Source: Caldicellulosiruptor acetigenus
GTDB lineage: Bacteria > Bacillota > Thermoanaerobacteria > Caldicellulosiruptorales > Caldicellulosiruptoraceae
Reading direction: 5' to 3'
NCBI RefSeq assembly: GCF_026914305.1
Contig: NZ_CP113866.1
Location: forward strand, 337,501-401,500
DNA: 64,000 nucleotides
Position 1 is the first letter of the stretch, and each line of letters opens with the position of its first letter. This document shows, in pieces, positions 27,411-52,579 of the stretch. The position numbers were made by a program, and so were the translations under genes. The notes beneath the pieces are model-generated. The model was not told the DNA's origin and ran no database searches. It saw only the letters and a program-made list of their open reading frames with translations.

Positions 27411-27479
27411 AGTTTGCCAGCAAAAGTTAGCCGTGTGGAAGGGGTTCTTCTACCCTTCTACACGGCTTTTGTTTTTTTT
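27411..27479 (+). promoter_or_regulatory. AGTTWGC-pair motif running into a terminator
   Basis: AGTTTGC (27411-27417), seven bases, AGTTAGC (27425-27431). The second copy forms the base of a 15-bp stem AGCCGTGTGGAAGGG / CCCTTCTACACGGCT (27429-27467, one G-U) followed by a T run to 27479. The copy at 49607 has the same terminator arrangement. Confidence 0.8.
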
Positions 27480-27503
27480 AGAGTCTGTCAAGGGGGTGAG
27501 ATA

Positions 27504-27788
27504 TTGAATGACCTGAATGGGATTGTAAAACCTGTCACACCAGAAGAGTTTTCAAATATCCTGACACGGCTTTTTGTAAATCTTTTGCATGTGGTTCAAA
27601 ATTTCATTAAACCAATTACCGGATTAGGGATAACAATCGCTGTGCTGTTCTTGCTAGTAGGCTATATCTTTCACGTGAGTACTGCTAAGAAATTGGGTGC
27701 TTCGATACTTGGCGGTGTGGGACTTGTGGTGATAATCTACTTGCTCGCTCCATATATACTTGGCGTCATTTATAACTCAGTCAAATGA
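27504..27788 (+). CDS. VirB2/TrbC-like small membrane protein (T4SS)
   Basis: This ~94-aa protein has two hydrophobic segments (GLGITIAVLFLLVGYIFHV and ASILGGVGLVVIIYLLAPYILGVI), the plan of VirB2/TrbC-type pilin-like subunits. TTG 27504 is proposed as start because AGGGGGTGAG ends a few bases before it and no better start is in frame. It is directly followed by a second pilin-like gene and PrgI, as in Gram-positive conjugation modules. Confidence 0.65.
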   Translation: MNDLNGIVKPVTPEEFSNILTRLFVNLLHVVQNFIKPITGLGITIAVLFLLVGYIFHVSTAKKLGASILGGVGLVVIIYLLAPYILGVIYNSVK

Positions 27789-27809
27789 AATGAGGGGGTG
27801 CAGTTTAAA

Positions 27810-28157
27810 ATGAACAAAATCAAAAAATTATGGTTTGCTGTTTTGACTGCTTTAACTCTTGCAATGTTACAGTTAACTGCATTTGCAACAGTCGATTTTT
27901 CTGGTATCGTGGAACAAAAAGACACAGCAACAGTTGTCAAAGATGTTGTTACCAAGGTTAAAACACCAATCCAAATCATAGCAGTTGGTGCAGCTGTGAT
28001 CTTATTCATGGTAAGAAGTGCACTGCTGGCTGCAACTCAGGACGAACACAAACAGGCGCAGATTAAAAAGTCTTTTGGTATTATGATTATTGGTTTAATC
28101 GGTGTATTCTTTGCAGCATCTATCATTGGTTTTGTAGTGAAAGCAATAAATGGTTAG
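27810..28157 (+). CDS. VirB2-like pilin candidate (T4SS)
   Basis: This 115-aa protein has a signal peptide (KLWFAVLTALTLAMLQLTAFA) and two further membrane segments (IQIIAVGAAVILFMVRSALL and FGIMIIGLIGVFFAASIIGFVV), separated by a short basic loop, which is the classical VirB2 layout. ATG 27810 follows GAGGGGG; the GTG at 27798 overlaps that site. Part of the conjugative channel at the cell envelope. Confidence 0.7.
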   Translation: MNKIKKLWFAVLTALTLAMLQLTAFATVDFSGIVEQKDTATVVKDVVTKVKTPIQIIAVGAAVILFMVRSALLAATQDEHKQAQIKKSFGIMIIGLIGVFFAASIIGFVVKAING

Positions 28158-28168
28158 TTGCTCGAAAG

Positions 28169-28202
28169 CCTGCTGGTAATCCTCCAGCAGGTTTTCTTTT
28201 TT
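28169..28202 (+). terminator. hairpin with T run after the VirB2-like gene
   Basis: CCTGCTGG/CCAGCAGG, 7-nt loop, followed by TTTTCTTTTTT. It lies inside what must be one transfer operon, implying partial termination or antitermination. Confidence 0.85.
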
Positions 28203-28228
28203 AGAAACCTGGAAGGGAAGGTGAAGCA

Positions 28229-28522
28229 ATGAGAACATTCAAGATCCCGTTGGATGAAAAAATAGAAGACAAAGTCATAGGTGGGATTATGACATTGAAA
28301 CAGTTTTTAGTGTCTGTTGTGCCTGCGGTTGTCGGTTTTGGATTATTTTCTGAGTTCAAATTCCCATTCTGGCTTGCTGCAATACTCGAAATCTTTATCC
28401 TTGCCACAGGTGCTGCTTTTGCGTTTCTTAAAATCAACGGCGATGAACTGGATGTGTTTTTGAAAAAGCTTTACAAGTTTTACACAGGCAAAAGAACAAT
28501 CCTGTACAGGAGTGATGATTGA
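28229..28522 (+). CDS. PrgI-family (VirB3-like) T4SS protein
   Basis: This 97-aa protein matches the PrgI family of Gram-positive conjugation systems: the N-terminal FKIPLDEKIEDKVIGGIMTLKQFL, two adjacent hydrophobic segments, and a C-terminal YKFYTGKRTILYR. It is the functional counterpart of VirB3 and typically precedes the VirB4 ATPase, as here. Confidence 0.82.
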   Translation: MRTFKIPLDEKIEDKVIGGIMTLKQFLVSVVPAVVGFGLFSEFKFPFWLAAILEIFILATGAAFAFLKINGDELDVFLKKLYKFYTGKRTILYRSDD

Positions 28523-28523
28523 C

Positions 28524-29318
28524 ATGTCAGATCTGCTTATTATTCTCATCGGCGGACTACTGATACTTGGCTACAAGTTGTTTGAAAAAAGAATAAAAAC
28601 AAAGGCAAATCTAAGTCCTTCCGGGTCAAAAGTACAGGGAATACAAAAGGTCGATGATAGAAACCAGTTAAAAAGAGTACTGGAGATAAAAAATATTCTG
28701 CCAGATGGAACTGTAGTTATGGACAATTTCAGATATGTCAGAATTTTTGGACTGTCATCACAGGATTTCGATTTAATGAGTGAAGCGGAGCAGGAAGCTT
28801 TTGAACTGAGTCTAATGTCGCTCATGCGTGCACTTGATGTACCCGTTCAATTTTTCGTAACAACTCAACGAATTGAAACAACCCAGCAAGTAAATGAAAT
28901 TGACAGGTTTTTGGCACAAAACACAGCAACTATCAATGAGAGTCTGAAGAAGTACTGCGAAATGCTCAAAAACGAACTTTTGCAGTTGCAAAAACAGAAG
29001 AGTTTGTATGTACGCAAGAGTTTTGTCACCGTCTGGGTACAAGAACAAAATGAAAAAGTAGTTTTCGAAAAGTTGAACGACAGAACAAAAAAGGTACTCT
29101 CACTTTTTAAAAACGCTGGAATAAAAATATATCAGCTTTCCATGCCAGAAGTGCTACAACTTCTGCACGATGAACTTAATAAAAACAAAATCTTCAAAGT
29201 TGATGAAGCTATAAAGAACCATGCCCTTGATTTGTATAACTCGGGAATAAGGGGGATCGCTATAGATGATTCAGTTATTGAAGAAGTCTTCGGGGAAAAA
29301 GCAGGCAAAACAGCATGA
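28524..29318 (+). CDS. membrane-anchored conjugation protein next to VirB4
   Basis: This 264-aa protein has one N-terminal membrane helix (LLIILIGGLLILGYKLF) and a soluble domain containing VMDNFRYVRIFGLSSQDFDLMSEAEQEAFE and FFVTTQRIETTQQ, patterns seen in the N-terminal part of VirB4/TraC proteins. It overlaps virB4 by 53 bp in another frame, and may be a split-off N-terminal domain of that ATPase. ATG 28524, 11 nt after AGGAG, is preferred to ATG 28515. Confidence 0.6.
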   Translation: MSDLLIILIGGLLILGYKLFEKRIKTKANLSPSGSKVQGIQKVDDRNQLKRVLEIKNILPDGTVVMDNFRYVRIFGLSSQDFDLMSEAEQEAFELSLMSLMRALDVPVQFFVTTQRIETTQQVNEIDRFLAQNTATINESLKKYCEMLKNELLQLQKQKSLYVRKSFVTVWVQEQNEKVVFEKLNDRTKKVLSLFKNAGIKIYQLSMPEVLQLLHDELNKNKIFKVDEAIKNHALDLYNSGIRGIAIDDSVIEEVFGEKAGKTA

Positions 29319-31137
29319 AGCCCAAAATCAACCAGCAAAGAGCAGCAGACTTGACAAGAACGCTCCGGGACTTTTAGAACTTGTAATCCCTGACTGCCTG
29401 CACCTTGAAAAAGACTACATCTATCTTGGTTCAGAAAGATATGCAAGAGTGTATGTTCTGGCAGTGCATCCGTATGAAATCAATATTGGCTTTTTCAACT
29501 CATTCTTCAATCTGGGTCAAATATCAATTTCAATCTATGTTGAACCTGCTGATACAGGCGAAGTAATAGTGGACCTTACAAAGAAAATTACAAAATTGAA
29601 ATCCAATGAGATTGTGAGTATGCAGCGAGGTAAAAAACCGGACTACCGCAAGATGACCCAGGCAGAAGACTACGAAATGCTAAGGGCGGCACTGCAGCGG
29701 GGTATCGAAAAAGCCCTGTATGTCCAGGTTTTCTTCACAATCTTTGCAGAAAGCTTGGAAAAGTTGAAAGAGAAATGTGAAGAATTTGAATCACGTTGCG
29801 CTGCCTACAATATCAAACCACGCTGTTTGAGTTTCGAACAATTTGAAGGATTGTTAACAACGTTACCGCTCGGAAATCAAAAGTATTCCGAGCATCAAAG
29901 GACGTACACAACAGGTTCTGCTGCGTCCACCGTCCCGGTAGGTAATACAGATGTCTACTATGAAGGGGGTGTATTCCTGGGATATAACCTGCTCACCGGT
30001 GCACCTGTTTTTTATAACCAGTTTGCACCGGAACTTACCGGTCCACATATGGCGATTTTCGGAACGGTTGGCAGTGGTAAGTCCACGACAATGAAAACAA
30101 TGCTTGCACGGGCAGCTGCGTTCGGATTTTCTGCCTGCGTCCTTGACCCGGAAGGCGAATACGAGAAACTTATAAACATGCTTGGCGGAAAATATGTAAA
30201 AGTCAAAAGTGGGGAAAAGATTGGCTTAAACCCGTTTGAGCTGGAAGTAGAAGAAGATGAGGGTAAAAGATTTGTAGACATTGACTCCAAGATCTCAGAA
30301 ATCAGGTTTATACTCGGCATCATCTCTGAAAACTTTATTGGTAAAAAGCTGGATGGAATACAGCTGGCTATAATCGAAAGGGCTGTCAGAAAACTATATG
30401 CAGACAGGGGAATTGATAAAAGCCCGGAAAGCCTGTACACAAGTTTTGCTACCGACAGTCAGGGAAGGTTTTACATTGGCAAGGTAAAGAAGAGATTACC
30501 GACACTCAGTGACCTGAGAGAGGAACTTTTAAAAGAGCAAGAAACACAGCAGCTTGCAAAAGCGATGGAAGTGTTCACAGGCGATGGGACTCTTGCTTTG
30601 TTTGACTGTGAGTCACAGATTGACCTGCAGGAAGGCGATAGAATAATAGGCTTTAACCTGAAAGAGTTTGACAAGGATCCATTTCTTAAGTTTTTCGCAG
30701 CAGTGAACATACTAAACTGGATCTGGAACAAGTTCTCCCACGCTAAGATGAGACAGCAAAAAAAGGTTGTTATCTTTGATGAAGCCTGGATGTTTACAAA
30801 GTACGAATCGACAAATGACTACCTTGAGTCGCTTTCCCGACGCGGGAGAAAATACAAAATATCGCTCTTAATTGCCTCACAGACAATACTCGAGTTCTTG
30901 AATACCACTGCTGGTCGAACAATGCTCAACATGTGTGCGACAAAGTTCATATTTAAACAGGAAGCGGACTTAGCTCAAGAGACGGCAGAGTATTTCAAAC
31001 TTTCGGACGCAGCTAAAAACTTCCTGATGACTGCTGAGAAAGGGCAGGGAATTCTGGTAAATTCAAAAGAAAAGGTTCTTCTGCAGGTGACTCCATTCGC
31101 ATTTGAATGGGATTATGTCACAACAACAAACTTTTAA
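29266..31137 (+). CDS. virB4: VirB4-like conjugation ATPase
   Basis: This 623-aa cytoplasmic motor ATPase powers the type IV secretion channel. The Walker A motif GTVGSGKSTTMK is near residue 268 and the Walker B motif KVVIFDEAWMF near 500; ASRRGRKYKISLLIASQ and TAEKGQGILVN are typical of the VirB4/TraE group. ATG 29266 follows AAGGGGGA at 9 nt spacing. Confidence 0.93.
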   Translation: MIQLLKKSSGKKQAKQHEAQNQPAKSSRLDKNAPGLLELVIPDCLHLEKDYIYLGSERYARVYVLAVHPYEINIGFFNSFFNLGQISISIYVEPADTGEVIVDLTKKITKLKSNEIVSMQRGKKPDYRKMTQAEDYEMLRAALQRGIEKALYVQVFFTIFAESLEKLKEKCEEFESRCAAYNIKPRCLSFEQFEGLLTTLPLGNQKYSEHQRTYTTGSAASTVPVGNTDVYYEGGVFLGYNLLTGAPVFYNQFAPELTGPHMAIFGTVGSGKSTTMKTMLARAAAFGFSACVLDPEGEYEKLINMLGGKYVKVKSGEKIGLNPFELEVEEDEGKRFVDIDSKISEIRFILGIISENFIGKKLDGIQLAIIERAVRKLYADRGIDKSPESLYTSFATDSQGRFYIGKVKKRLPTLSDLREELLKEQETQQLAKAMEVFTGDGTLALFDCESQIDLQEGDRIIGFNLKEFDKDPFLKFFAAVNILNWIWNKFSHAKMRQQKKVVIFDEAWMFTKYESTNDYLESLSRRGRKYKISLLIASQTILEFLNTTAGRTMLNMCATKFIFKQEADLAQETAEYFKLSDAAKNFLMTAEKGQGILVNSKEKVLLQVTPFAFEWDYVTTTNF

Positions 31138-31159
31138 AAATTAAGGTCACTTTTTTGAA

Positions 31160-31173
31160 AACCGTGGTATAAA
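31160..31173 (+). promoter_or_regulatory. extended -10 promoter, GTGGTATAAT family
   Basis: The extended -10 reads GTGGTATAAA with the hexamer at 31168-31173, preceded by a T/A-rich tract (TTTTTTGAAAACC). Six more copies with the same GTGGTATAAY core occur in the element. No clear -35 hexamer. Confidence 0.6.
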
Positions 31174-31209
31174 GAAGAATAGAACAAAACTTTTAAGGAG
31201 AAGTGTGAA

Positions 31210-35058: not shown

Positions 35059-35634
35059 ATGAACGATATGCTTGATATACTGGACAGAGCAAGAATTGCT
35101 CTGCTTTATCCCAAGAACGAGTCAAAGAGAGAAAAAATTGAATACGAATTATCTGATAACATGCACTGTTCAATCTGCGGGGAAAAAGCGCACTACAGAC
35201 TCTCCAGAACACCTGCATGGTTCTGTACACGCCATTACAATCAGCTTTTAAATCGTTCACTGTGGGATTTCATTGACAGGTATCTTATTGAAATGGACCC
35301 GCTTGCAGTTCTGTACCTTGAGTATAAAGATAAAAATATCAACCTTGAAGTGTGGTTCGATGACAAATTGATGAAAGGAATTCAATACTACTTCAGAGAT
35401 GTTGGGTTTAGAAACTTCAGACTGGATAAAGAGACATTTCTGACAGTTGTGAGGAGTTGCAGTGGAGTTGCATATGCTGACTGGATTGATAACAAACTCA
35501 TAACCTTCATGATACCCGTTCATGATTGTCTGATTACAAAACAGGAGTGGGAATTTATAAAACAAAGGGTGATTAGAAAAGGACTGCTCAAGAAGGTACA
35601 AATAAACAATAAAAGCCCTGATTATGATTTCTAA
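35059..35634 (+). CDS. unknown zinc-ribbon-like protein, paralogue 2
   Basis: This 191-aa protein is paralogous to the preceding one (KETFLTVVRSCSGVAYADWID; KQEWEFIKQRV). C-x2-C (CSIC) plus C-x2-H (CTRHYN) make a likely zinc-binding site near residues 35-60. It starts 5 bp after its paralogue, with GGGGGAG in front. An 11-bp hairpin spans its stop codon. Function unknown. Confidence 0.65.
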   Translation: MNDMLDILDRARIALLYPKNESKREKIEYELSDNMHCSICGEKAHYRLSRTPAWFCTRHYNQLLNRSLWDFIDRYLIEMDPLAVLYLEYKDKNINLEVWFDDKLMKGIQYYFRDVGFRNFRLDKETFLTVVRSCSGVAYADWIDNKLITFMIPVHDCLITKQEWEFIKQRVIRKGLLKKVQINNKSPDYDF

Positions 35635-35642
35635 TCAGGGCT
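35614..35642 (+). terminator. perfect hairpin spanning the stop codon
   Basis: AGCCCTGATTA / TAATCAGGGCT, 7-nt loop; the TAA stop is the start of the 3' arm. No T run follows, so this looks like an RNA-stability or coupling element rather than a terminator. Confidence 0.65.
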
Positions 35643-35783
35643 GAGTTATATGCATGGGGGAGGAGAATACCCCCAACTGTTTTCTGCAAACTATTTAAAC
35701 GCAAACTCATATTTTGGCTAACTGCTCAATTTCAGTATACCAGAATAGAATGCGAACAAAAAACCGAACACTGAAAAATTTTT

Positions 35784-35822
35784 GCCTGTGAGAATGAGAC
35801 TTTTCTCACAGGCTTTTTTTAT
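35784..35822 (+). terminator. intrinsic terminator upstream of parM
   Basis: GCCTGTGAGAA / TTCTCACAGGC stem followed by seven T. Confidence 0.9.
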
Positions 35823-35861
35823 TTTGCGGGCAACAAAAATTTCAAAGGGGGAAGGATAGAA

Positions 35862-36812
35862 ATGAAATGCGCTGTTGATGTTGGCTTTGGTTTTACAAAG
35901 GCAGTGAATGAAAAGGGAAAAGAAGTGATTTTCCCATCTGCAGTAGCAAAAACTTTTATGACCGACATTGGGCTAAAGCCCACAAGTGACTACTTTGTAA
36001 CCTACATGAATCAAACATATGCAGTAGGAAAAGCAGCAACACAGTGCTTGATTACAGAAACAAGCTTTTCTGAAGACAGATTTGTAAATGAGTTTTCAAA
36101 ATTGCTTGTTCTGACAGCACTTATGGCACTCGAAAGCGACAAAGAAGTTGAGCTTGGTCTTGGTCTTCCGTTAATGCTTTATCCAAAACTGAAAGACAAG
36201 GTAAAAAACTACTTTGAGTTTGCAGAAGAAATAATCATTGACGCCAACAATATAGCACACAGCTATCACATTGCAAGATGTGAAGTGTTTCCTCAGGGCG
36301 TCGGAGCTTTATTTTCAATCTCATCCCCAGTAGAAGATGGAACATACTGCATTTTAGATGTTGGTTTTCGAACAACAGACGTGATTGTTGTTGAAATCAA
36401 AAACAAAAATATAAATCCGCTGCTTGACATGTGCTTTACTGTTGACAAAGGAATGTCATTAGCAGTTGAAAGACTTGGTCTCATGATTGAAAGAAAGTAC
36501 GGTGTGAGCTACGACACGAGCCTGCTTTTTGACATCCATGAACGCTCGCATATATCTGTTCGTGGCAGAAAGATAGATATTGAACCACACAAAAAAGAAG
36601 TTTTTGGTGCTATAGCAGACGACATAGTACAGTCTATTTCAAGAAGGCTGCAACGTGGTTTTGATACGTTCGACGGAGTGCTTGTCGCAGGCGGTGGAGC
36701 TTTCAACGTTGCATCTGTCCTCCAGAAGGAATTTAATAATGTTCAGGTACTCGACAACGCACAGTTTGCAAATGCAAAAGGATATCTGCATCTTCTTCAC
36801 ATGTACGAGTAA
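35862..36812 (+). CDS. parM: ParM/Alp-type actin-like segregation ATPase
   Basis: This 316-aa actin-fold protein has phosphate-1 motif AVDVGFGFTKAV at the N terminus, phosphate-2 motif CILDVGFRTTDVIVVE near residue 165, and adenosine motif GVLVAGGGAFN near 275, the ParM/StbA/Alp7A pattern. It would form filaments that push replicated DNA apart. It is followed by a repeat-rich region and a small ribbon-helix-helix-like gene, so a full type II partition system is present in this ICE. Confidence 0.85.
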   Translation: MKCAVDVGFGFTKAVNEKGKEVIFPSAVAKTFMTDIGLKPTSDYFVTYMNQTYAVGKAATQCLITETSFSEDRFVNEFSKLLVLTALMALESDKEVELGLGLPLMLYPKLKDKVKNYFEFAEEIIIDANNIAHSYHIARCEVFPQGVGALFSISSPVEDGTYCILDVGFRTTDVIVVEIKNKNINPLLDMCFTVDKGMSLAVERLGLMIERKYGVSYDTSLLFDIHERSHISVRGRKIDIEPHKKEVFGAIADDIVQSISRRLQRGFDTFDGVLVAGGGAFNVASVLQKEFNNVQVLDNAQFANAKGYLHLLHMYE

Positions 36813-41571: not shown

Positions 41572-41617
41572 ACTGGCACTTTAAAAAACAAGTTTGCAGG
41601 GAAGGGAGAGATGAAAA

Positions 41618-42388
41618 ATGCAAAGCACATCACAAACAAAAACAGACAGAAGGATTTATGAACTCCAGCAGGCACTAAAAACAGGGAAAATTCTACTGGG
41701 TGAAGTAATAACCAAAGAACAGCAAAACGACAAATGGTATGCAGTTGTGAAATGGAAAGGACTGAGACTGTACTGCGATGAGGCGGAGCTTGGGCTGCAG
41801 GAACAGGTGAAAAACAAAGCGGACGCCCTGCTTGGAGCTTTGATTGAGTTTGTTGTGGTAGCCCAGCAGCACGGCAAATTTTACATTTCAAGGGTAAAGG
41901 CAATGGAGAAGCGAAGAAAAATCTGGCAGGAGAAAGTGAAAGAAGGTGATATTATAGAAGGCAGGATAACAGGAGTAACACCACGCAACGCATTTGTTGA
42001 AGTGTTAGGGTATGAATTTGCCCTGCCGGCAGAAGAAATGCTGTGGAACTACACAAATGATTTGAGAAGGCATTTCAAGATAGCAGACAGGGTTAAGGCA
42101 AAAGTGATAAGCAAGGATCCACCGAAAATAAGCGTCAAAGAAACTCTGTCAAACCCGTGGGATACACCACCAACTGTGTCGGTAGGTCAGGTTGTTGCTG
42201 CGCCAGTAGACGCCATTGCACCTTTCGGGTTTTTAGTTAGGCTGGACGACGGCAAACAGTGTCTGTGTCCGCCGTACTCGAATGCGAGAGAAATACCAAC
42301 CATTGGCACAAAGGTGGTGGTGCAGATACAGAAAATTGATTTAGAGAAAAAGAGAATCTTTGGAACGATACAGAGAATACTGAGATAA
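41618..42388 (+). CDS. S1-domain RNA-binding protein
   Basis: This 256-aa protein has two recognisable S1 OB-folds: WQEKVKEGDIIEGRITGVTPRNAFVEVLGYEFALPAEEM (about 105-145) and SVGQVVAAPVDAIAPFGFLVRLDDGKQCLCPP (about 190-225). A preceding region may be a third, diverged module. Such proteins bind RNA at ribosomes or in degradation. An S1 protein encoded by this element is notable given the repeated structured leaders; a link is speculation. ATG 41618 is placed seven bases after GAAGGGAGAG. Confidence 0.75.
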   Translation: MQSTSQTKTDRRIYELQQALKTGKILLGEVITKEQQNDKWYAVVKWKGLRLYCDEAELGLQEQVKNKADALLGALIEFVVVAQQHGKFYISRVKAMEKRRKIWQEKVKEGDIIEGRITGVTPRNAFVEVLGYEFALPAEEMLWNYTNDLRRHFKIADRVKAKVISKDPPKISVKETLSNPWDTPPTVSVGQVVAAPVDAIAPFGFLVRLDDGKQCLCPPYSNAREIPTIGTKVVVQIQKIDLEKKRIFGTIQRILR

Positions 42389-43022: not shown

Positions 43023-43060
43023 AAAAAGCTCTGGTAAAAAGCCAGAGCTTTTTGTTTTTT
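43023..43060 (+). terminator. intrinsic terminator
   Basis: AAAAAGCTCTGG / CCAGAGCTTTTT followed by GTTTTTT, upstream of the druA promoter. Confidence 0.9.
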
Positions 43061-43080
43061 GGGGTGCATTTTCAAAAATG

Positions 43081-43090
43081 GTGGTATAAC
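43081..43090 (+). promoter_or_regulatory. extended -10 promoter of druA
   Basis: GTGGTATAAC (hexamer 43085-43090), preceded by ATTTTCAAAAATG. The gene start is 34 bp downstream. Confidence 0.65.
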
Positions 43091-43123
43091 AATAATAGCA
43101 AGCAGAGAAGGAGAATTTGCCAA

Positions 43124-44275
43124 ATGAGCATGGCAGCATATCAACTTTGCTTTGCTGAGTATGTCGATGCACTCAAACAAGAAATTTTGCAAGAACTTGA
43201 AAAATTCCAAAAGTGCTTAAATACCACAGACAAAGAAAGCATGAGAAAACTTCACGAGATTGCAAGAAGCGAAGAAATCAAAAAGCACAGAGATTTTCTT
43301 CTAAGCGAAAGTCAAAAGATAGTAAACACGTTTTTTGCAGACGGCTTTGAAATAGAACCTGAGAAGATAGAACCTGTTCTCATCCCGGTAGAAAACGACG
43401 CACAGAACAGCATATTCAAGACTGCACGATTCACGTGGAGCCTGCCATATACAGAAGGCTATGGCAGACGGTTAAAGTTTTTGATATTCGACAATCACAA
43501 CGGCAAGCTGATGGGTATTTTAGGTTTGCAGTCGCCGGTGCTGGGACTGAAGGCAAGGAACGAGTATTTGGGACTTGGCACGGGTGCAGAAAAACTCAAG
43601 GTGCTCAACCGTACAATGGACATATACACACTTGGGGCAGTGCCACCGTACAACTTTCTGCTGGGCGGGAAACTGATGGTATTAAGTGCAGTTTCGAACG
43701 AAGTGAGGGAAGCATATCGCCGCAGGTATGAAGGAAAAACAACGGAAATAGAGAAGAATACAATAGACGGGCGCTTGATAATGCTGACAACCACATCTGC
43801 ATACGGCAGAAGCTCCATCTACAATAGAGTCAAATACAAAGGCAATCTCACCTGCATACCTGTTGGGTATACAGAAGGGCAGGGTACATTGTTCCTGACC
43901 AGTAGTCTATGCGAAAAAGTAAGAGAATACCTGCAAAACAAAGGCGTGAAAGTTAAAAGCGGCTATGGGAACGGACCAAACTACAAGTTTAGACTTGCAA
44001 AAGCGCTGGCAAAACAGCTAAAATTGGAAGGGATTGAGATTGAACTTGTAACCCATGGTGTGCAGAGAGAAGTGTACGTGTTCCCGCTGATTAAAAACCT
44101 GCATGAGTATGTCAGAGCACCGGATACAACTAGACCAGATTACTACGATTACCCGTTTTCTGAGCTGGCGAACTACTGGAAGGAAAGATACTGCCTGCCC
44201 AGGAGTAAAAGAAACAGGGAATGGCAGGCATGGCGAAAGGAACAGGCATGGCAGGACATTGCTAGGTTCTTATGA
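43124..44275 (+). CDS. druA: DruA-like DUF4338 protein (Druantia family), stand-alone
   Basis: This 383-aa protein carries the full set of DUF4338/DruA blocks: ARFTWSLPYTEGYGRRLKFL, GKLMGILGLQSPV, VLNRTMDIYTLGAVPPYNFL, LLGGKLMVLSAVSNEV, MLTTTSAYGRSSIYNRVKY and VTHGVQREVYVFPL. DruA is a component of the Druantia anti-phage systems, but the usual DruB-DruE partners are absent and the neighbours are small unknown genes with their own promoter. Defence or mobile-element function is therefore open. ATG 43124 is placed after GAAGGAG. Confidence 0.82.
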   Translation: MSMAAYQLCFAEYVDALKQEILQELEKFQKCLNTTDKESMRKLHEIARSEEIKKHRDFLLSESQKIVNTFFADGFEIEPEKIEPVLIPVENDAQNSIFKTARFTWSLPYTEGYGRRLKFLIFDNHNGKLMGILGLQSPVLGLKARNEYLGLGTGAEKLKVLNRTMDIYTLGAVPPYNFLLGGKLMVLSAVSNEVREAYRRRYEGKTTEIEKNTIDGRLIMLTTTSAYGRSSIYNRVKYKGNLTCIPVGYTEGQGTLFLTSSLCEKVREYLQNKGVKVKSGYGNGPNYKFRLAKALAKQLKLEGIEIELVTHGVQREVYVFPLIKNLHEYVRAPDTTRPDYYDYPFSELANYWKERYCLPRSKRNREWQAWRKEQAWQDIARFL

Positions 44276-47435: not shown

Positions 47436-47515
47436 CTCTTCCACTCCCCGGGAAAATGCAAACTCCCCTTGCATGGAAGTTAGCCAATCAAAGTAAGCAA
47501 GGGGGAGTGGAAGAG
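47436..47515 (+). promoter_or_regulatory. structured leader with AGTTWGC pair, sequestered ribosome site
   Basis: AGTTAGC (47478-47484), seven bases, AGTAAGC (47492-47498). The following GGGGGAGTGGAAGAG, just before ATG 47516, can pair perfectly over 14 bp with CTCTTCCACTCCCC (47436-47449) or over 10 bp with CTCCCCTTGC (47463-47472). The two folds compete for the same Shine-Dalgarno strand. Confidence 0.75.
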
Positions 47516-47845
47516 ATGGAAGAAAAGTCACCATACGTACCAACCAGAGTAATAATAGACGGAATTAAATGCAAAATTGAGTGGAAAGACCATGCACTTT
47601 CACGCTGCGCCAGAAGAAAAGTACCGGAATATAAAATCAAGCAATTGTTAGAAATATCACCCGAAATTCTTGATTATCCAACTGAGACAGAGATCATTAT
47701 TCAGGCAAAATGGTTTGCCCCAGTAATCATAGTTAAATGCAACGGAACAGATATCGAAATACATATTAAAACAGTGATTGACAAGTCCAATGTAACACCC
47801 AAAAAAGAAACAGACATAATAATCGACAAAAGATTTTTTGAGTAA
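47516..47845 (+). CDS. small DUF4258-like protein
   Basis: This 109-aa protein has a central CKIEWKDHALSRCARRKVPE that resembles DUF4258-type small proteins (compare 27022-27276, RHAIKRYQERV) and a C-terminal strand-rich part (PVIIVKCNGTDIEIHIKTVID). No partner antitoxin is evident. Translation should depend on opening of the leader hairpin. Confidence 0.5.
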   Translation: MEEKSPYVPTRVIIDGIKCKIEWKDHALSRCARRKVPEYKIKQLLEISPEILDYPTETEIIIQAKWFAPVIIVKCNGTDIEIHIKTVIDKSNVTPKKETDIIIDKRFFE

Positions 47846-47866
47846 AAAAGTGAATAAATGGAGAGT

Positions 47867-47940: not shown

Positions 47941-47970
47941 ATAAGACCTTATGAAAGGGGTAGATAGAAA

Positions 47971-48513
47971 ATGGCAACAGTCAAGTTTGCAGAAGGTTTA
48001 AAAGAAGACAGAGAAGTGTTAGAATTTGTAGAAAGACAGATAGCTGAATACAATTTAGACAACGAAACATTCGAAGAAGAAGAGCCGATGTTTGCATTTA
48101 CAAGCGAAGAAGAAGACCTTGCAACAAGAGTGATAAGACGAAAAGATAAGACATACGTCATTGAGTGGTACACAAGAATCAGCGAATACTTCAAAGACAA
48201 CGAACCAAGAGAGTTCAAAGAATATACCCTTCCAAACGGCAGAAAAGTCAAAGTTTGCTTCGCACCATACTTCCCGCCAGAAGATCTGTTAGAAGACGCC
48301 GAAGAAGACGAATACCCACCAAAAGACAAAGTGCTCAAGTTTGTATTAGAGTGCCTTGTGAATGATGACACACCGATAGGCGAAGAAGCAGCATACTACG
48401 ATGTAGAAAAAGACAAAATCACAGCAATTTTCAAGAGACTCTCAAAAGACGAATACGAAATAGAAGAATACTACCGCTGCAATGCAGTGATAGACAAGAG
48501 AGAGTTTGAGTAA
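47971..48513 (+). CDS. unknown acidic 180-aa protein
   Basis: This very acidic protein (stretches such as EEEEPMFAFTSEEEDLA and EDAEEDEYPPKDK) is not recognised. No membrane segment. GAAAGGGG lies ahead of ATG 47971. High acidity is common in DNA-mimic anti-restriction proteins on mobile elements, but I see no specific family match, so this remains a possibility only. Confidence 0.6.
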   Translation: MATVKFAEGLKEDREVLEFVERQIAEYNLDNETFEEEEPMFAFTSEEEDLATRVIRRKDKTYVIEWYTRISEYFKDNEPREFKEYTLPNGRKVKVCFAPYFPPEDLLEDAEEDEYPPKDKVLKFVLECLVNDDTPIGEEAAYYDVEKDKITAIFKRLSKDEYEIEEYYRCNAVIDKREFE

Positions 48514-48520
48514 ACCACTG

Positions 48521-48586
48521 GGCAGGTCCAAAGCCTGCCTGTTTTCATACAGGCTACTGGGTGGGGAACTATTCCCTGCCCAGTAG
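48521..48586 (+). terminator. two consecutive hairpins before 48618 gene
   Basis: GGCAGG/CCTGCC with a TGTTTTC tail (48521-48546), then CTACTGGG/CCCAGTAG (48554-48586) enclosing GGGGAA/TTCCC. Confidence 0.7.
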
Positions 48587-48617
48587 CAATTAGAATCCAA
48601 AAGGGAGATGATTTTTC

Positions 48618-48836
48618 TTGGATGAGCTGCAAAGAAGACGATGTCTGAAATGTGATTACCTGAACAATGATATCCCGATCAACAAAAAGAAACCAAACTG
48701 CAAAAACTTTCTAGACTGCGAAGTGTACAATGTTACGATTAAATTAAAGATGCGAATTCAATATCTGCGTGGCGAAATAGGTCCTATGTTTATATGTGCT
48801 AAAGATAGCTGTACAGTGGAGAATTTTAAATTTTAA
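48618..48836 (+). CDS. small Cys-rich protein
   Basis: This 72-aa protein has C-x2-C (CLKC), then CKNFLDC and a C-terminal CAKDSC, giving six cysteines, a probable zinc-binding or Fe-S module. The start TTG 48618 is ten bases after AAAAGGGAGATG. Function unknown. It is followed by a ~0.7-kb non-coding structured region. Confidence 0.5.
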   Translation: MDELQRRRCLKCDYLNNDIPINKKKPNCKNFLDCEVYNVTIKLKMRIQYLRGEIGPMFICAKDSCTVENFKF

Positions 48837-48897
48837 CATTTTGTTTGCAAAACCACTGTCATGTTCAAAAGACCTGAAAACACAACATTTTGAGATA

Positions 48898-49545
48898 CCC
48901 GGAAGTTCTGTCCGGGCTTTTCGTGCAGCCATCCCCTGCCAGAAGGTTCAGAACTCCCCGTTCAGGACAGTTCTACAAGAAAGGCCAACATTTGTTCGCT
49001 ATTTAAAAGCAAAGCACATGAAAAGCAGGTCTTTGCAAATGTAGTCTGGGGCAGGTCAGCTCAAAAGCCCGGACAGGAAACAGCACATGGGCAAAAACAC
49101 AGTAAAATCAAGGATTTTGGGTAACTGCAAATTCGCAAAATGAATAAAGGCTTAAAAATCGCATTGCAAATGTGCAGGTAATATAAAAAATTACCTTTCA
49201 TGCAAAAATCGTTCAATGTAGGGAAAAAGCAAACGGTTTCATGGGGTATTTTTGGGGGTGTATATGCTGAACTTCCAACTTCAATTTCAAGACCTGGGTG
49301 TTCCCCGGAAACCTTGAAAATACTAAGTTTCAAGCTCATAAAAATGCCGATCTGGGCTTTGGAATCAGCCGAAACAGCAACAGACGACAAACAGCGACGG
49401 AGTTTTCAAAGGGGAAAACCGACAATAGCGAACAAATGTTAGCTTAAAGTTAGAAGGCAATCACAAGGCAGGTTTTAGACTTTTGCAGCGTTGGGCAGCA
49501 GAAAAGCCAGCTAAAAAGCCCGGACTGGTATTCCTGCCCGGTAGA
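48898..49545 (+). ncRNA. candidate large structured RNA (~650 nt)
   Basis: No gene is credible here, yet the sequence is rich in complementary segments. AACATTTGTTCGCTATT (48987-49003) is perfectly complementary over 17 bp to 49424-49440. GTCCGGGCTTTT (48910-48921) is perfectly complementary over 12 bp to 49514-49525, closing the whole domain. The same 5' segment (48908-48921) is also complementary over 14 bp to 49063-49076. Local hairpins include GGTAAT/ATTACC (about 49180-49196) and AGAACT/AGTTCT (about 48950). Size and design recall the large ornate RNAs ROOL and GOLLD of mobile elements. Strand is chosen from neighbouring genes. Confidence 0.6.
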
Positions 49546-49572
49546 AAAAAGCTGTTGCAAACAAAAGTTTTT

Positions 49573-49582
49573 GTGGTATAAT
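49573..49582 (+). promoter_or_regulatory. extended -10 promoter, GTGGTATAAT family
   Basis: GTGGTATAAT (hexamer 49577-49582) after AAAAGTTTTT. It starts a series of seven leader-plus-gene units that reaches 53107. Confidence 0.7.
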
Positions 49583-49606
49583 AAAATCAGGAAGTGAATA
49601 TCGAAA

Positions 49607-49672
49607 AGTTTGCCAATGAAAGTTAGCCCTGAGCTGGGAAGCGGAAGCTTCCTTCTCAGGGCTTTTCGTTTT
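49607..49672 (+). promoter_or_regulatory. AGTTWGC pair running into a terminator
   Basis: AGTTTGC (49607-49613), seven bases, AGTTAGC (49621-49627). The second copy begins a stem AGCCCTGAG / CTCAGGGCT (49625-49663) followed by TTTCGTTTTT. Same design as at 27411. It lies 25 bp downstream of a promoter, so attenuation of the whole series is plausible. Confidence 0.8.
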
Positions 49673-49676
49673 TATT

Positions 49677-49726
49677 ACCCCCGCAATTGGCTGTTTGCCA
49701 AAAATAGTTTGCAGGGGGTATTGGAT
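49677..49726 (+). promoter_or_regulatory. structured leader with AGTTWGC pair
   Basis: TGTTTGC (49692-49698), seven bases, AGTTTGC (49706-49712), then AGGGGG and the start codon at 49727. ACCCCCGCAA (49677-49686) can pair with TTGC and GGGGGT around the ribosome site, with one bulged A. Confidence 0.75.
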
Positions 49727-49912
49727 ATGAACCTGATCCAAAAATTTTGTTCCGAAGTTTGTCCGTATGGTGGTTCTGAAAAATACCCGGGTTGCAAAGT
49801 TTTAAAAATGTTGAATAACGATGAGCGCTGTCCGGCATGGCTGCTTGCAAAGTATCTCAGACAAAAAGTCAACAAAGAACTGGACACAGGAGAAGAAAAA
49901 GAAGACCGGTAA
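49727..49912 (+). CDS. small Cys-containing protein
   Basis: This 61-aa protein has C-x3-C (CSEVC), a further CKVL and RCPAW, so four cysteines may bind a metal; the tail is highly charged. ATG 49727 is eight bases after AGGGGG. Function unknown. It is the first gene of the leader-separated series, and its stop codon abuts the next hairpin. Confidence 0.5.
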   Translation: MNLIQKFCSEVCPYGGSEKYPGCKVLKMLNNDERCPAWLLAKYLRQKVNKELDTGEEKEDR

Positions 49913-49913
49913 G

Positions 49914-49980
49914 CAGGGAAAGGGAATCTCCTTTCCCATGGCAGTTTGCCAGAAATAGTTTGCAGGGAGGTTGGAAAAAA
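49914..49980 (+). promoter_or_regulatory. structured leader with AGTTWGC pair
   Basis: The hairpin GGGAAAGG/CCTTTCCC (about 49916-49937) is followed by AGTTTGC (49943-49949), seven bases, AGTTTGC (49957-49963) and AGGGAGG before ATG 49981. Confidence 0.72.
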
Positions 49981-50505
49981 ATGAAGTTATCCTGCGGTGG
50001 TATACTGGTAAGTCCCGAAAACTTCAAGTCCATCAGAGTAATAAGAGACCAGAAGACTGATATGGACAACGTGGATGTTTGCACATTCAACGGTATCATG
50101 AGAATTTTCAGCATATACAACCAGAGAACTGATTTGAAAAGCTCACCGGCAGCAAGGTTCGTAGAATTGTTGCTACAAAAACTAAGAATACAGGTATTTA
50201 GAAGTTACAAACCTTTGGAAGACTACGATCTGGGTAAAGCGTTGTTTGTGCAAACAACATATTCTGATGATGATATCTACTGGGTCAATGCAAAGTATAT
50301 CAGACAGGTAAGGATAGACAGCAAAAAAACAACATTTGGAGAAGAATATACAGTATTTATTGAAAACAGTCTTTCTGAAGAGTACCCTGTAATTCACACA
50401 CTCGACAGGACAGTAGCAGAAAACTATGTCAACATGCTTCTTAAAATCCTGCAGGAAAGCGTAATAGAAGTTGAAAAGCTGATAAGAGACTTTGTATGCT
50501 GGTAA
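49981..50505 (+). CDS. unknown protein with two related beta modules
   Basis: This 174-aa protein is not recognised by family. It appears to contain two copies of one module: SPENFKSIRVIRDQKTD ... ARFVELLLQKLRIQ and VNAKYIRQVRIDSKKTT ... AENYVNMLLKILQE. Each has an initial I-R-x-(I/V) strand and a closing amphipathic helix. A single copy forms the protein at 44356. ATG 49981 is 10 nt from AGGGAGG. Confidence 0.55.
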   Translation: MKLSCGGILVSPENFKSIRVIRDQKTDMDNVDVCTFNGIMRIFSIYNQRTDLKSSPAARFVELLLQKLRIQVFRSYKPLEDYDLGKALFVQTTYSDDDIYWVNAKYIRQVRIDSKKTTFGEEYTVFIENSLSEEYPVIHTLDRTVAENYVNMLLKILQESVIEVEKLIRDFVCW

Positions 50506-50513
50506 AAAGTTGT

Positions 50514-50573
50514 GCAAGGGAGTTTCCCTTGCTCTGGAAGTTAGCAAATCAAGGTTTGCAGGGGTGATGAGTA
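50514..50573 (+). promoter_or_regulatory. structured leader with AGTTWGC pair
   Basis: GCAAGGG (50514-50520) pairs with CCCTTGC (50526-50532). The latter can instead pair with GCAGGGG (50558-50564), which contains the Shine-Dalgarno sequence. Between them lie AGTTAGC (50539-50545), seven bases, GGTTTGC (50553-50559). Confidence 0.78.
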
Positions 50574-51059
50574 ATGGATAATCTCATCTACAAAATTCCT
50601 GTGCCAGAAGAAAAGGCAAAAAAAGAGTTACAAAAGTTTTTAGAGTACTTTGAACAGGAAGAAGGCGTAAACTGCCTGCAGTTTTTCAAATCAGAAGACA
50701 TTATCTACGACATTGCCTACTGGGCAAGGGTAACAAACGATAACTGGCCGCTTGGTGGGACAGTGTGGTCGTACGAACCATGGGAACACTGCCAGAAAAC
50801 GTATCTCATACACACAGATGGTACAATAGAAGAAGTAGACGGTTTTGAGTTTTTCGAACTGCAAATCTGGAAAGTTTTCGAAAAGTACCCGCACAAACTT
50901 CTAACGACAGGATATATCGTTATCGTAGAGATCCACGGAGATGTAGCAACAATCTGCTACACAGAAAACACCACAGCAGTCCAGAACAAGATACTCAGGA
51001 TAATCAGGGAAAAACAAGAAATCAGGCAAAAAATTCAAAAGCTACTGGCAGGGTTATAA
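50574..51059 (+). CDS. unknown 161-aa protein
   Basis: This acidic protein is not recognised. It has tryptophan-rich segments (AYWARVTNDNWPLGGTVWSYEPW), a central strand region and a basic C-terminal helix (RIIREKQEIRQKIQKLLAGL). Start ATG 50574 after AGGGGTGATG. The stop codon lies in the loop of the next hairpin. Confidence 0.55.
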   Translation: MDNLIYKIPVPEEKAKKELQKFLEYFEQEEGVNCLQFFKSEDIIYDIAYWARVTNDNWPLGGTVWSYEPWEHCQKTYLIHTDGTIEEVDGFEFFELQIWKVFEKYPHKLLTTGYIVIVEIHGDVATICYTENTTAVQNKILRIIREKQEIRQKIQKLLAGL

Positions 51060-51114
51060 GCTCTGCCAGTAGCTTGGAAGTTTGCAAAAATAAAGTTTGC
51101 AGGGGGAGATAAGT
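51042..51114 (+). promoter_or_regulatory. structured leader with AGTTWGC pair
   Basis: CTACTGGCAG (51042-51051) pairs with CTGCCAGTAG (51063-51072), with the upstream stop codon in the loop. CTCTGC (51061-51066) can alternatively pair with GCAGGG (51099-51104) at the ribosome site. AGTTTGC (51079-51085), eight bases, AGTTTGC (51094-51100). Confidence 0.78.
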
Positions 51115-51684
51115 GTGATTAATAACTATGTTGGCAAACTGATAGTATACACCGGAAGTATGTTCAGCGGGAAAACGACGCAACTTCTGGAAACCCTGAG
51201 AAGGTTCCAGATAGCGGGATATTCAACTATGCTGTTCAAACCATCAATAGATACACGGTACAGTATTTCGGAAGTTGTTAACCATCCCAAAAACTACAGA
51301 TTTTCTGCTGTCAGTATCGAATATATAGAAGACATAGAACGATATGCTGAAAGTGTCCAGGTTATTGGTATAGACGAGTTCCAGTTTATCAAATCAATAT
51401 TTGGTCCTCTGAAAACAATCGACAAATTGCTTCTCAGGGATAAAACAATAATTATTGCAGGACTGGACATTGACTTTAAGGGAAGACCATTCGAAAGTAT
51501 GAAAGAAGTACTGCCTGTTGCGGATTATGTGTACAAGCTGCATGCAATATGTGTTAAGTGCGGACAGGACGCATGGATCTCTCACCGTACAACAGACGAA
51601 GGGGAGAGAATCGTAATAGGCGCAGAAGAAAAGTATCAACCTTTGTGCAGAAGGTGCTTCTACAGAGTCACTCAGGGGAAGTAA
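51115..51684 (+). CDS. tdk: thymidine kinase (type II)
   Basis: This 189-aa enzyme phosphorylates thymidine to dTMP. The P-loop is GSMFSGKTTQLL near residue 15, the Walker B-like VIGIDEFQFI near 85, the lasso region GLDIDFKGRPFESM, and a zinc site from CVKC plus CRRC at the C terminus. Start GTG 51115 behind AGGGGGAG. A nucleotide-salvage gene on an ICE suggests a phage-like need for dNTPs during its own replication. Confidence 0.93.
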   Translation: MINNYVGKLIVYTGSMFSGKTTQLLETLRRFQIAGYSTMLFKPSIDTRYSISEVVNHPKNYRFSAVSIEYIEDIERYAESVQVIGIDEFQFIKSIFGPLKTIDKLLLRDKTIIIAGLDIDFKGRPFESMKEVLPVADYVYKLHAICVKCGQDAWISHRTTDEGERIVIGAEEKYQPLCRRCFYRVTQGK

Positions 51685-51748
51685 AATCTTCCCTCTCCCT
51701 TTTTGGAAGTTAGCCAAACAAAGTTAGCTGGAAGGGAGAGGGTTTGTC
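51674..51748 (+). promoter_or_regulatory. structured leader with AGTTWGC pair
   Basis: AGGGGAAG (51674-51681) pairs with CTTCCCT (51688-51694) around the tdk stop codon. CCCTCTCCCTT (51691-51701) pairs perfectly over 11 bp with AAGGGAGAGGG (51732-51742), covering the ribosome site. AGTTAGC (51708-51714), seven bases, AGTTAGC (51722-51728). Confidence 0.82.
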
Positions 51749-52183
51749 ATGTCCGAGTTGGCGAGGGAAATTGCAAGGGAAATCAAAGAAGTAAAAGATG
51801 CTTTTCTGGACACGCTGCAGGAACTGTTCAACCCAAAGTACCCTGTTCAAAAACTTGGCTGGAAGCAGGTATGGAAAACAGTTAACAGCAAACTACCGGA
51901 CGATAACTCTTACAGAAACAGGTATGGCAAAGGAAAACCGTATCCGGATAAAGACGTCATCAAACTGATAGAAGCAAGATTTGACGGTAAAACACTGGAA
52001 CTTGCAAGGCACAGGGTACTGTTTAGCATTGTCAGAACACCCGATGGCTTTGTGGAATGCTACAAGCTTTTCCAGCAGTTTGAACGTACACCGGCAAAAG
52101 AAGCAATAGAAGCAATAGAAAGAGCACTCGATACAGATCTGGGCAGTATCAACGATATGTTTGTAAAGATGTATGCTTATTAA
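51749..52183 (+). CDS. unknown 144-aa protein
   Basis: This alpha-helical protein starts SELAREIAREIKEVKDAFLD and ends TDLGSINDMFVKMYAY; not recognised. A central segment PDDNSYRNRYGKGKPYPDKDV is polar and basic. ATG 51749 lies just after the GGGAGAGGG strand that the leader hairpin would hide. Confidence 0.55.
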   Translation: MSELAREIAREIKEVKDAFLDTLQELFNPKYPVQKLGWKQVWKTVNSKLPDDNSYRNRYGKGKPYPDKDVIKLIEARFDGKTLELARHRVLFSIVRTPDGFVECYKLFQQFERTPAKEAIEAIERALDTDLGSINDMFVKMYAY

Positions 52184-52185
52184 GA

Positions 52186-52250
52186 AGGCAGGGGAGTAAA
52201 CCCTGCCTGTGGTGGTTTGCCAAAAACTGTTTGCAGAAAGGGGGATTAAT
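52186..52250 (+). promoter_or_regulatory. structured leader with AGTTWGC pair
   Basis: AGGCAGGG (52186-52193) pairs with CCCTGCCT (52201-52208). It is followed by GGTTTGC (52214-52220), seven bases, TGTTTGC (52228-52234) and AAAGGGGG before the TTG start. Confidence 0.75.
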
Positions 52251-52514
52251 TTGAGCATCACGCAAAAAGAAGTAGAAACATTTTTAGAAGAGTATAGAAA
52301 GTACCTGTTATCTCAGGTTGAGGAAATTAAGGATATCCTGCAAACCCTGCCAGTAGACGCAGTAGAAAGAGCATTCTCATATAAAGATGCTGCTAAGATT
52401 GCCGAGAAACTCAAATATTATCACAGTATGTATCAAATTGGTCTACATGCTTTAGAAGAAGTTTTTGGTAAAAACAAAATTAGCTTTTCCATAAGGGGAG
52501 TTAACGTGGTATAA
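52251..52514 (+). CDS. unknown 87-aa helical protein
   Basis: This protein is entirely alpha-helical by eye (QKEVETFLEEYRKYLLSQVEEI, RAFSYKDAAKIAEKLKYYHSM), not recognised. TTG 52251 is proposed because GGGGG is 6-10 bases upstream and no ATG fits. Its last codons overlap the next GTGGTATAAT promoter. Confidence 0.5.
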   Translation: MSITQKEVETFLEEYRKYLLSQVEEIKDILQTLPVDAVERAFSYKDAAKIAEKLKYYHSMYQIGLHALEEVFGKNKISFSIRGVNVV

Positions 52515-52579
52515 TCAAATTAGAAACTTCCCCTTTGCCCGGCAGTTTGCCAAACAAAGTTAGCAAAGGGGGCATATAG
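52506..52579 (+). promoter_or_regulatory. promoter and structured leader with AGTTWGC pair
   Basis: GTGGTATAAT (hexamer 52510-52515). CCCCTTTGC (52530-52538) pairs with GCAAAGGGG (52563-52571), which holds the ribosome site of ATG 52580. Loop contains AGTTTGC (52544-52550), seven bases, AGTTAGC (52558-52564). Confidence 0.8.

Follow-up and report, generated by a model that had tools for sequence, protein, structure and literature searches.

A 64,000-nucleotide (nt) stretch of the Caldicellulosiruptor acetigenus genome (assembly GCF_026914305.1, contig NZ_CP113866.1, positions 337,501 to 401,500 of the forward strand; hereafter the window) carries genes of a conjugative element, in which pairs of the heptamer AGTTWGC stand before the ribosome sites of at least twenty genes and within several terminators. 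Sequence comparisons supported selection on these pairs at the RNA level and point to an undescribed RNA-level control system. On balance, we lean slightly towards the pairs being a cis-acting RNA code of a family of conjugative elements, read by one trans-acting factor that would cause antitermination and translation activation and would be titrated by a decoy RNA. A first-pass annotation of the window had proposed a modular cis-acting RNA element common to many small genes of the element, probably served by one trans-acting factor, and our results support it. The second cluster, the terminator geometry, the third heptamer, the decoy RNA, the variant motif and the chromosomal copies were not part of that annotation; they lay outside the window or depended on tools.

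The element was recognized as conjugative by its VirB4/TraG-like and other neighbouring gene content. Its genes encode VirB4/TraG-like and coupling-protein ATPases, an actin-like ParM-type protein, HU, an S1-domain protein, thymidine kinase, RecT, an ArdC-type antirestriction protein, a Cas4-like nuclease, a CHC2-zinc primase-like protein and a sigma factor. Nameable genes with heptamer leaders include those for thymidine kinase, RecT, ArdC, the nuclease, the primase-like protein and the sigma factor, and the transfer operon opens with an attenuator of this kind. Most remaining genes with such leaders have no assigned function.

All ten annotated copies of AGTTWGC-N7-AGTTWGC were found in place, nine by pattern search and the copy at 51079 from its heptamer positions (51079 and 51094), which agree with the 8-base gap described for it. 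The pair was exact at N7 in five copies (27411, 49607, 49943, 51708 and 52544) and at N8 in the copy at 51079, with one or two mismatches in the other four (47478, 49692, 50539 and 52214). When two mismatches were allowed, the pair pattern matched 12 times in the window, compared with a mean of 2.14 and a maximum of 6 in 100 dinucleotide shuffles. These matches comprised nine of the ten copies and three on the minus strand, one of them overlapping the decoy locus described below (35672-35692) and two within the gene at 51749-52183. As annotated, a purine-rich ribosome site and a start codon could be read closely downstream of eight copies, and a terminator hairpin follows the other two (27411 and 49607). 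Two further weak copies did not hold up: near 41577 there is a single real heptamer (41591), and 42667 is doubtful. The features of the window are as follows.

27411 to 27431, plus strand: heptamer pair AGTTTGC-N7-AGTTAGC of the transfer-operon attenuator, just 3' of the tRNA-His gene; identified by pattern search and orthologous attenuators
27429 to 27478, plus strand: intrinsic terminator, its stem beginning with the AGC of heptamer 2; ~37 nt separate it from the start of the next gene, with no promoter pattern between
41591 to 41597, plus strand: single heptamer, a weak member, before the S1-domain protein gene (41618-42388)
47478 to 47498, plus strand: ribosome-site pair before gene 47516-47845
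49607 to 49627, plus strand: terminator-class pair after the promoter-like sequence GTGGTATAAT (49573-49582)
49625 to 49675, plus strand: intrinsic terminator overlapping heptamer 2
49692 to 49712, plus strand: ribosome-site pair before gene 49727-49912, a short way past the 49607 attenuator
49943 to 49963, plus strand: ribosome-site pair before gene 49981-50505
50539 to 50559, plus strand: ribosome-site pair before gene 50574-51059, with an upstream hairpin at 50514-50532
51079 to 51100, plus strand: ribosome-site pair (N8) before the thymidine kinase gene (51115-51684)
51708 to 51728, plus strand: ribosome-site pair in the hairpin CTTCCCTCTCCC/GGAAGGGAGAGGG, which can hide the ribosome site of gene 51749-52183
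52214 to 52234, plus strand: ribosome-site pair before gene 52251-52514
52544 to 52564, plus strand: ribosome-site pair in the loop of CCCCTTTGC/GCAAAGGGG, before gene 52580-53107

The annotation had placed the heptamers in loops. This holds for several ribosome-site leaders; in the terminators, by contrast, the stem takes in the last bases of heptamer 2. It had also described alternative pairing of the strand just upstream of the motif, which is visible in some leaders of the window; at 52530 it fails, since the far upstream strand lies above the -10 element, outside the transcript from that promoter. No Rfam family was matched at the motif at the gathering score, in the window or in five further stretches, in line with the annotated lack of a named family. 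Limited full-text literature searching, partly aimed at other points, found no description of an AGTTWGC motif.

Homologous copies were present beyond the window, both in the same genome (G000; 2.74 Mb, one contig) and in others. Further clusters of G000 lie at 410.9 and 414.5 kb, and a second large group spans 447.6-458.3 kb, ~58 kb past the last copy in the window. At one mismatch or fewer, 24 forward and 4 reverse pairs were counted, versus 1 and 0 for a reversed-pattern control. Within the genus, 27-30 exact pairs in a single orientation occurred in 4 of 12 genomes (G000, G001, G003 and G005) and 0 to 5 in the other eight; the control gave none in all 12. The regulon also occurs in G012, a genome of a sister genus, and the stretches read from each of the five related conjugative elements (four from the genus, one from the sister genus) held 28-44 clusters. 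A pattern combining the pair with a ribosome site was found in 9 of 37 genomes of the class, every one in this family, and in 6 of 398 genomes of the phylum, every one in this genus; it was not found outside the family among these class and phylum genomes.

Wider searches gave little that resembled the regulon. Three stretches matched in a search of genome contigs, of which one, L111, is a true fragment of the element. This 4.2-kb contig (WUQU01000099.1) had been binned as a Bathyarchaeota metagenome-assembled genome; it is a piece of the bacterial element and was therefore probably mis-binned as archaeal. In viral contigs, a looser scan matched at least 120 stretches, and among the 80 stretches listed 79 had a single match and one had two. 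A stricter scan gave 13 single matches, and the decoy promoter pattern (see below) gave 58 single matches; the matches of both patterns are probably due to chance and were treated as such. A single heptamer before a ribosome-like site was matched 50 times in nine other genomes, versus 17 times for the reversed control, with no evident leader among the 11 places fetched out of the 50.

For the anatomy of the leaders, 182 clusters were gathered by a script that accepted pairs with at most one mismatch and a spacing of 13-19. They comprised 113 before a ribosome site, 39 before a terminator and 30 unclassified, and contained two (129 clusters), three (51) or four (2) heptamers with a mostly A-rich linker of 6-12 nt. 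The consensus of the ribosome-site leaders, TTGGN-AGTTWGC-MAAAWAM-AGTTWGC followed by a purine-rich site, includes a TTGG that is absent from the terminator leaders. By inspection, many ribosome-site leaders stand close behind the previous gene. In 36 of the 113, the start codon is preceded at 0-4 nt by a third heptamer (exact in 19, otherwise with one mismatch), compared with 3 of 113 for a reversed-heptamer control. In the leader of a 73-amino-acid protein, the ribosome site lies between the heptamers in four of the five elements, and a heptamer lies within the coding start in all five. In the primase-like leaders of four elements, heptamer 2 is ~20-30 nt from the ribosome site, inside a hairpin loop.

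The terminator leaders share a fixed geometry. Although stem starts were accepted across an 18-nt range, the terminator stem started at base 4, 5 or 6 of heptamer 2 in all 39 (1, 31 and 7 cases, respectively). The first pairs of these terminators, whose stem sequences differ, are thus made by the final two to four bases of heptamer 2 (AGC in most). In 36 of 39, the next start codon is no more than 260 nt downstream, and in 3 of 39 a promoter pattern intervenes; a promoter pattern lies within 90 nt upstream in 16 of 39, a count made for this class only. The transfer-operon attenuators of G000, G001, G003 and G005 are orthologous, with stems that differ yet pair, and in G012 a comparable terminator overlaps the pair. 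One or more terminator leaders, among them the G005 transfer attenuator, were put in another class by the script; the terminator geometry of this attenuator is visible in its sequence. Attenuator and ribosome-site leaders also occur in tandem, for example at 49607 and 49692. In the window, a tRNA-His gene (27330-27403) lies between an element gene and the transfer attenuator; at this position in relatives, the heptamers of G003 directly follow the gene end and G005 has a tRNA-like sequence.

Conservation was concentrated on the heptamers. In 53 pairs of orthologous leaders (the spacing-14 pairs only, 53 of 115), identity was 94% in the heptamers, 72% in the linker, 56% in the 8-20 nt upstream, 50% in the ribosome-site region and 38% beyond. 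For the structure tests, near-identical clusters (over 80 or 85%) and clusters near stretch ends were dropped, which removed kinship only partly; 103 and 101 of the 113 ribosome-site leaders were kept, and 130 of the 182 clusters for the consensus. The upstream and ribosome-site strands of the same leader paired at 15.83, versus 13.86 (standard deviation 0.29) with permuted partners, and none of 200 permutations reached this value. Upstream hairpins reached 17.7, versus 11.6 in shuffles that were plain, not dinucleotide, shuffles. Among 101 leaders, both helices were strong in 29 (mutually exclusive through shared bases in 24 of these), only the helix hiding the ribosome site in 28, only the upstream hairpin in 20 and neither in 24. 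The orthologous RecT leaders retained their hairpin while its sequence changed. As the first-pass annotation had claimed, stems vary while pairing stays, both in leader alignments and in the permuted-partner test. Two other structural ideas were rejected. A mini-hairpin around heptamer 1 (TTGGC-AGTTW-GCCAA) was weak, with a stem of at least 4 in 43% versus 35% of permuted cases, a level reached by 4 of 500 shuffles. Complementarity to 16S rRNA was dropped, as only AGUUUGC would pair and not AGUUAGC.

Pairs of this kind could also be operators in DNA at which a repressor encoded by the element binds, comparable to the dual heptamers TTATCCC-nn-TTATCCC recognized by the ribbon-helix-helix protein Reg of plasmid p576; such dual heptamers are known to control plasmid establishment genes (excerpts of PMC8708921). 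However, the spacing of the pairs varies from 13 to 19, they are anchored to ribosome sites and terminators with a promoter pattern near 16 of 39 terminator leaders, and their RNA stems covary, all of which makes a DNA operator most improbable.

The candidate decoy RNA lies on the opposite strand. In the 2.74-Mb genome, a plus-strand tandem array of GCWAACT occurs only at 35686-35723 of the window. Homologues were found in all four regulon genomes of the genus (own included), and G012 has a counterpart layout. Read along the minus strand, the locus presents TGTTCG-N6-TGTTCG, an extended -10 element, three heptamers, a hairpin and a terminator.

35753 to 35770, minus strand: TGTTCG-N6-TGTTCG direct repeat upstream of the proposed decoy RNA, once per element in the fetched stretches of all five elements
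35734 to 35742, minus strand: extended -10 element TGGTATACT, the proposed decoy promoter, TGNTAWACT in five of five elements
35686 to 35723, minus strand: three heptamers, AGTTAGC, AGTTTGC and AGTTTGC, at the 5' end of the proposed decoy RNA
35605 to 35642, minus strand: intrinsic terminator of the proposed decoy RNA

The three-heptamer locus and its promoter-like element were kept in all five elements. Downstream on this strand no gene is evident, only frames opposite the plus-strand gene, so the locus looks like a small RNA with three reader sites. It looks like a decoy RNA of ~120 nt, which would have to be made and to bind the factor.

The same array had been our starting point for an antisense RNA, an option also left by the first-pass annotation. 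In its first form, this RNA would come from the plus-strand array at 35.69-35.72 kb. The interpretation was turned round to a minus-strand decoy on account of the conserved promoter-like element and terminator of that strand (four-element alignment) and of mismatched heptamer types. An antisense RNA from the plus strand at 35.65-35.78 kb would carry three antiheptamers and pair with the leaders in trans. The sole plus-strand GCWAACT array lies there, the other regulon genomes have homologues of it, and behind it stands a plus-strand terminator. Judged by the base at position 5 of the two heptamers, 62 of 113 ribosome-site leaders are of type T,T and 11 of type A,T, and two neighbouring antiheptamers could match either; with these 73 array-compatible leaders, the type-order test alone is insufficient against antisense. 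However, the conserved promoter-like element and a terminator are oriented the opposite way, and the terminator leaders show the array-matching A,T order in 1 of 39 and the opposite order in 28 of 39. In G012, the array has no GCTAACT although AGTTAGC makes up 20 of the 49 exact heptamers. An antiheptamer pattern with up to three mismatches matched 29 times in the window versus 24.1 in shuffles, a count reached by 12 of 100 and thus not above chance. With the heptamer types mismatched in the terminator leaders and in G012, an antisense RNA is very improbable.

A related element in G006 (RecT 48%, coupling protein 54%, S1 protein 42%, ParM 92%) uses a different motif. In its homologous leaders, AGTTRAAC-like motifs replace AGTTWGC, both before the ribosome site and between site and start; this consensus was drawn by eye from about eight leaders. 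The TGTTCG repeat is absent from the G006 stretch. TTGAAAG, suggested for G006 by a tandem-repeat search, was rejected since it looked like coding sequence by inspection. The more distant elements of G016 and G020 had no such motif by inspection and no pattern match.

AGTTWGC heptamers also stand before chromosomal genes. The leader of nrdD (anaerobic ribonucleotide reductase) has three heptamers in G004 and G006 only, of 12 genus genomes, between a conserved ACACAATATATAGT box, which we take to be NrdR-box-like, and the ribosome site (G004 C1:1978257-1978295; G006 C1:2280639-2280676); the other ten have a different leader. A helix-turn-helix (HTH) gene beside a SecB-like gene has a heptamer pair in its leader, read in G001, G004, G005 and G006, with pattern matches to the same sequence in G009 and G010 and to a close one in G003. 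The SecB match scored below the Pfam cut-off. This antitoxin-like HTH and SecB-like locus lies on the chromosome (L040 1501-2345, L070, L066 and L092) and may be a toxin-antitoxin-chaperone module linked to the same reader. In G010, heptamers accompany two Rpn-like genes. A CRISPR (clustered regularly interspaced short palindromic repeats) spacer of G004, C. diazotrophicus (C1:2417788-2417811, L068), contains the heptamer pair AGTTTGCCAAATAAATTAGTTTGC and by eye resembles RecT-type leaders.

In the mechanism that we favour, the AGUUWGC-linker (6-12 nt)-AGUUWGC pair would be the site, on nascent or finished mRNA, of one sequence-specific factor, most likely a protein gripping two or three single-stranded heptamers. 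In terminator leaders, this factor would compete with the terminator. Since the terminator stem is built on the final bases of heptamer 2 (usually AGC), occupied heptamers would prevent termination, and transcription would enter the transfer and other operons. In ribosome-site leaders, the heptamers are placed in the loop of, or next to, structures capable of hiding the site, and the factor would shift this switch. Opening is favoured because terminator and ribosome-site leaders stand in tandem and should act in the same direction. A decoy locus suggests a titratable binder, and the ~120-nt opposite-strand RNA with its three heptamers may titrate the factor as CsrB does CsrA. The transfer and establishment genes (type IV secretion system, ArdC, RecT, primase-like protein, thymidine kinase) would in this way be kept off until activation or arrival.

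The sign of the effect on translation is uncertain, activation being about twice as likely as repression. With the same RNA code, the factor could instead be a translational repressor that covers the ribosome site and is relieved by the decoy, giving a burst of expression in a factor-free recipient. Heptamer 2 often abuts the ribosome site, several leaders of the G006 element have motif copies on both sides of it, and in p576 the repressor of the establishment genes stays behind when the DNA is transferred (excerpts of PMC8708921). On the other hand, a bound heptamer 2 should hinder termination in all 39 terminator leaders, so that on tandem leaders the two effects of a repressor would cancel, and the distant heptamer 2 of the primase-like leaders does not suit occlusion. 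Repression is therefore rather unlikely, and activation is retained.

Several observations nevertheless weigh against an activating, decoy-titrated factor. The third heptamer between ribosome site and start codon, and the 73-amino-acid gene leader with its ribosome site between heptamers in four of five elements, both fit occlusion better and argue for it. A strong hiding helix was present in just 57 of 101 ribosome-site leaders, 24 having neither helix, and of 103 single ribosome-site leaders 22% were individually significant versus shuffles. No decoy was found in the fetched G006 stretch, and scanning 35500-35900 with the two-hexamer consensus yielded no promoter on either strand, so that the proposed decoy promoter is an extended -10 element only. 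Heptamer leaders on chromosomes of genomes without the regulon suggest a host-encoded reader, the different motif of the G006 element suggests an element-encoded one, and the two cannot both be simply true. Finally, no reader protein was found in the element by searches that covered part of its genes; the regions between clusters in G001, G003 and G005 were fetched in part, and gene-content comparisons are accordingly incomplete.

Two proteins were considered as readers. The S1-domain protein (window 41618-42388) could act as an RNA-unfolding translation activator. It has two S1 stretches, is present in all five regulon elements and in the G006 variant element, and has one heptamer (41591) in its own leader. 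Its homologues, however, occur in related elements of the same-class genomes G016 and G020 without the heptamer motif, and G004, with its three-heptamer nrdD leader, gave no match to it at E 1e-10; its role as reader is doubtful. Among 61 genomes searched, the 73-amino-acid protein (G000 C1:455593) occurred in the five with the regulon and in no other, apart from one weak match with a stop. This restriction and the ribosome site between its heptamers made it look like a self-regulated reader, and it is kept as a candidate. Pfam and PHROGs searches returned nothing for it, and Foldseek gave no match at E 0.001 with a low-confidence model (predicted local distance difference test score, pLDDT, 62). 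As a wider and more tentative proposal, a hitherto unknown class of RNA-binding protein might read AGUUWGC arrays, act on the terminators as well as the ribosome sites of ~30 leaders, be titrated by the element's decoy RNA and differ in specificity between elements (AGUUWGC versus AGUURAAC-like), with host genes wired in; nrdD and the toxin-antitoxin-chaperone-like locus might then serve as sensors of the element or be genes that it exploits.

Two further features of the elements were observed. A DruA-family protein gene lies within the element at 43052-44275 of the window. A type-I-toxin-like gene with a short membrane-peptide frame is present in seven copies in six elements (G000, G001, G003, G005, G006 and two in G012). 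Its ribosome site GGGGGTGAT is complementary to the upstream TCACCCCC, and its 5' and 3' ends can pair too; the G000 copy (C1 ~453.1-453.5 kb; L036 ~13.2-13.5 kb) had no Rfam family match.

Decoy RNAs are known for CsrA/RsmA proteins (CsrB/RsmY), whose CsrA motif is GGA-centred, and for ANTAR systems (EutX/Rli55). LicT/SacY-type antiterminators and T4 RegA exemplify a read-through choice in leader RNA and the regulation of many early genes near the ribosome site, respectively. Like the Csr system, the present one has a short repeated RNA motif near many ribosome sites, and it has a putative small RNA with several copies of that motif. It differs in the motif, AGUUWGC rather than GGA-centred, and in terminator overlap as its second main feature. 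GG upstream of the heptamer reached 87% and 92% in ribosome-site leaders, versus 17% and 41% G in terminator leaders. A CsrA gene (PF02599) was matched once per genome in seven of seven genomes, outside and far from the element. Mobile elements can carry CsrA/RsmA-type regulators, as excerpts of PMC9928087 describe for the plasmid RsmQ.

As in ANTAR (EutV) sites, the RNA motif is tandem, its second half reaches into the base of an intrinsic terminator, and it recurs along an operon. ANTAR sites form two mini-hairpins with hexaloops, with A at position 1 and G at position 4 (excerpts of PMC3369931 for both points). Here, in contrast, 97-100% of unique copies have T at position 4 of the heptamer, no hairpin is evident at heptamer 2, and ANTAR genes lay outside the element in seven of seven genomes. 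Shared upstream sequences, EGeRS1 and EGeRS2, define an establishment-gene regulon that includes ardC. According to the excerpts of PMC8708921, EGeRS1 of pLS20-family plasmids is 420-750 bp long, contains many inverted repeats and lies directly before a likely ribosome site; it blocks read-through by a mechanism given there as unknown, and EGeRS2 is the DNA operator of a ribbon-helix-helix repressor. The unit here is set apart by description: ~21 nt plus stems, before single genes and terminators, with a proposed decoy.

Antitermination also governs transfer genes of Gram-positive conjugative elements through canT of Tn916 and conAn. As far as excerpts of PMC11658703 and PMC8955417 go, both act from a single place near the transcript start, after which RNA polymerase passes many terminators, whereas here each terminator of the class has its own heptamer pair in its stem. 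In TRAP and Sac/Bgl systems, a protein reads leader RNA to choose terminator or read-through (excerpts of PMC3369931). Motif, spacing and setting differ from TRAP, LicT/SacY and T4 RegA, and no such protein was found in the genes searched. RAT-like protein-read attenuators resemble the terminator leaders in having a site over the 5' part of the terminator, as in 39 of 39 here if the heptamer is the binding site. The system works like protein-read attenuators and like Csr with decoys, but it fails the tested CsrA and ANTAR features and is a poor fit to either.

Several Caldicellulosiruptor species can be genetically modified, so the reader could be found by pull-down or genetics. If the favoured reading is true, there would be a new RNA-binding protein to seek, and the silence and sudden switch-on of a conjugative element could be tested in a simple way. 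One RNA word would control conjugative transfer and establishment at two layers, elongation and translation, with a built-in decoy, and the chromosomal leaders would be a case of host genes bearing the RNA word of an element.

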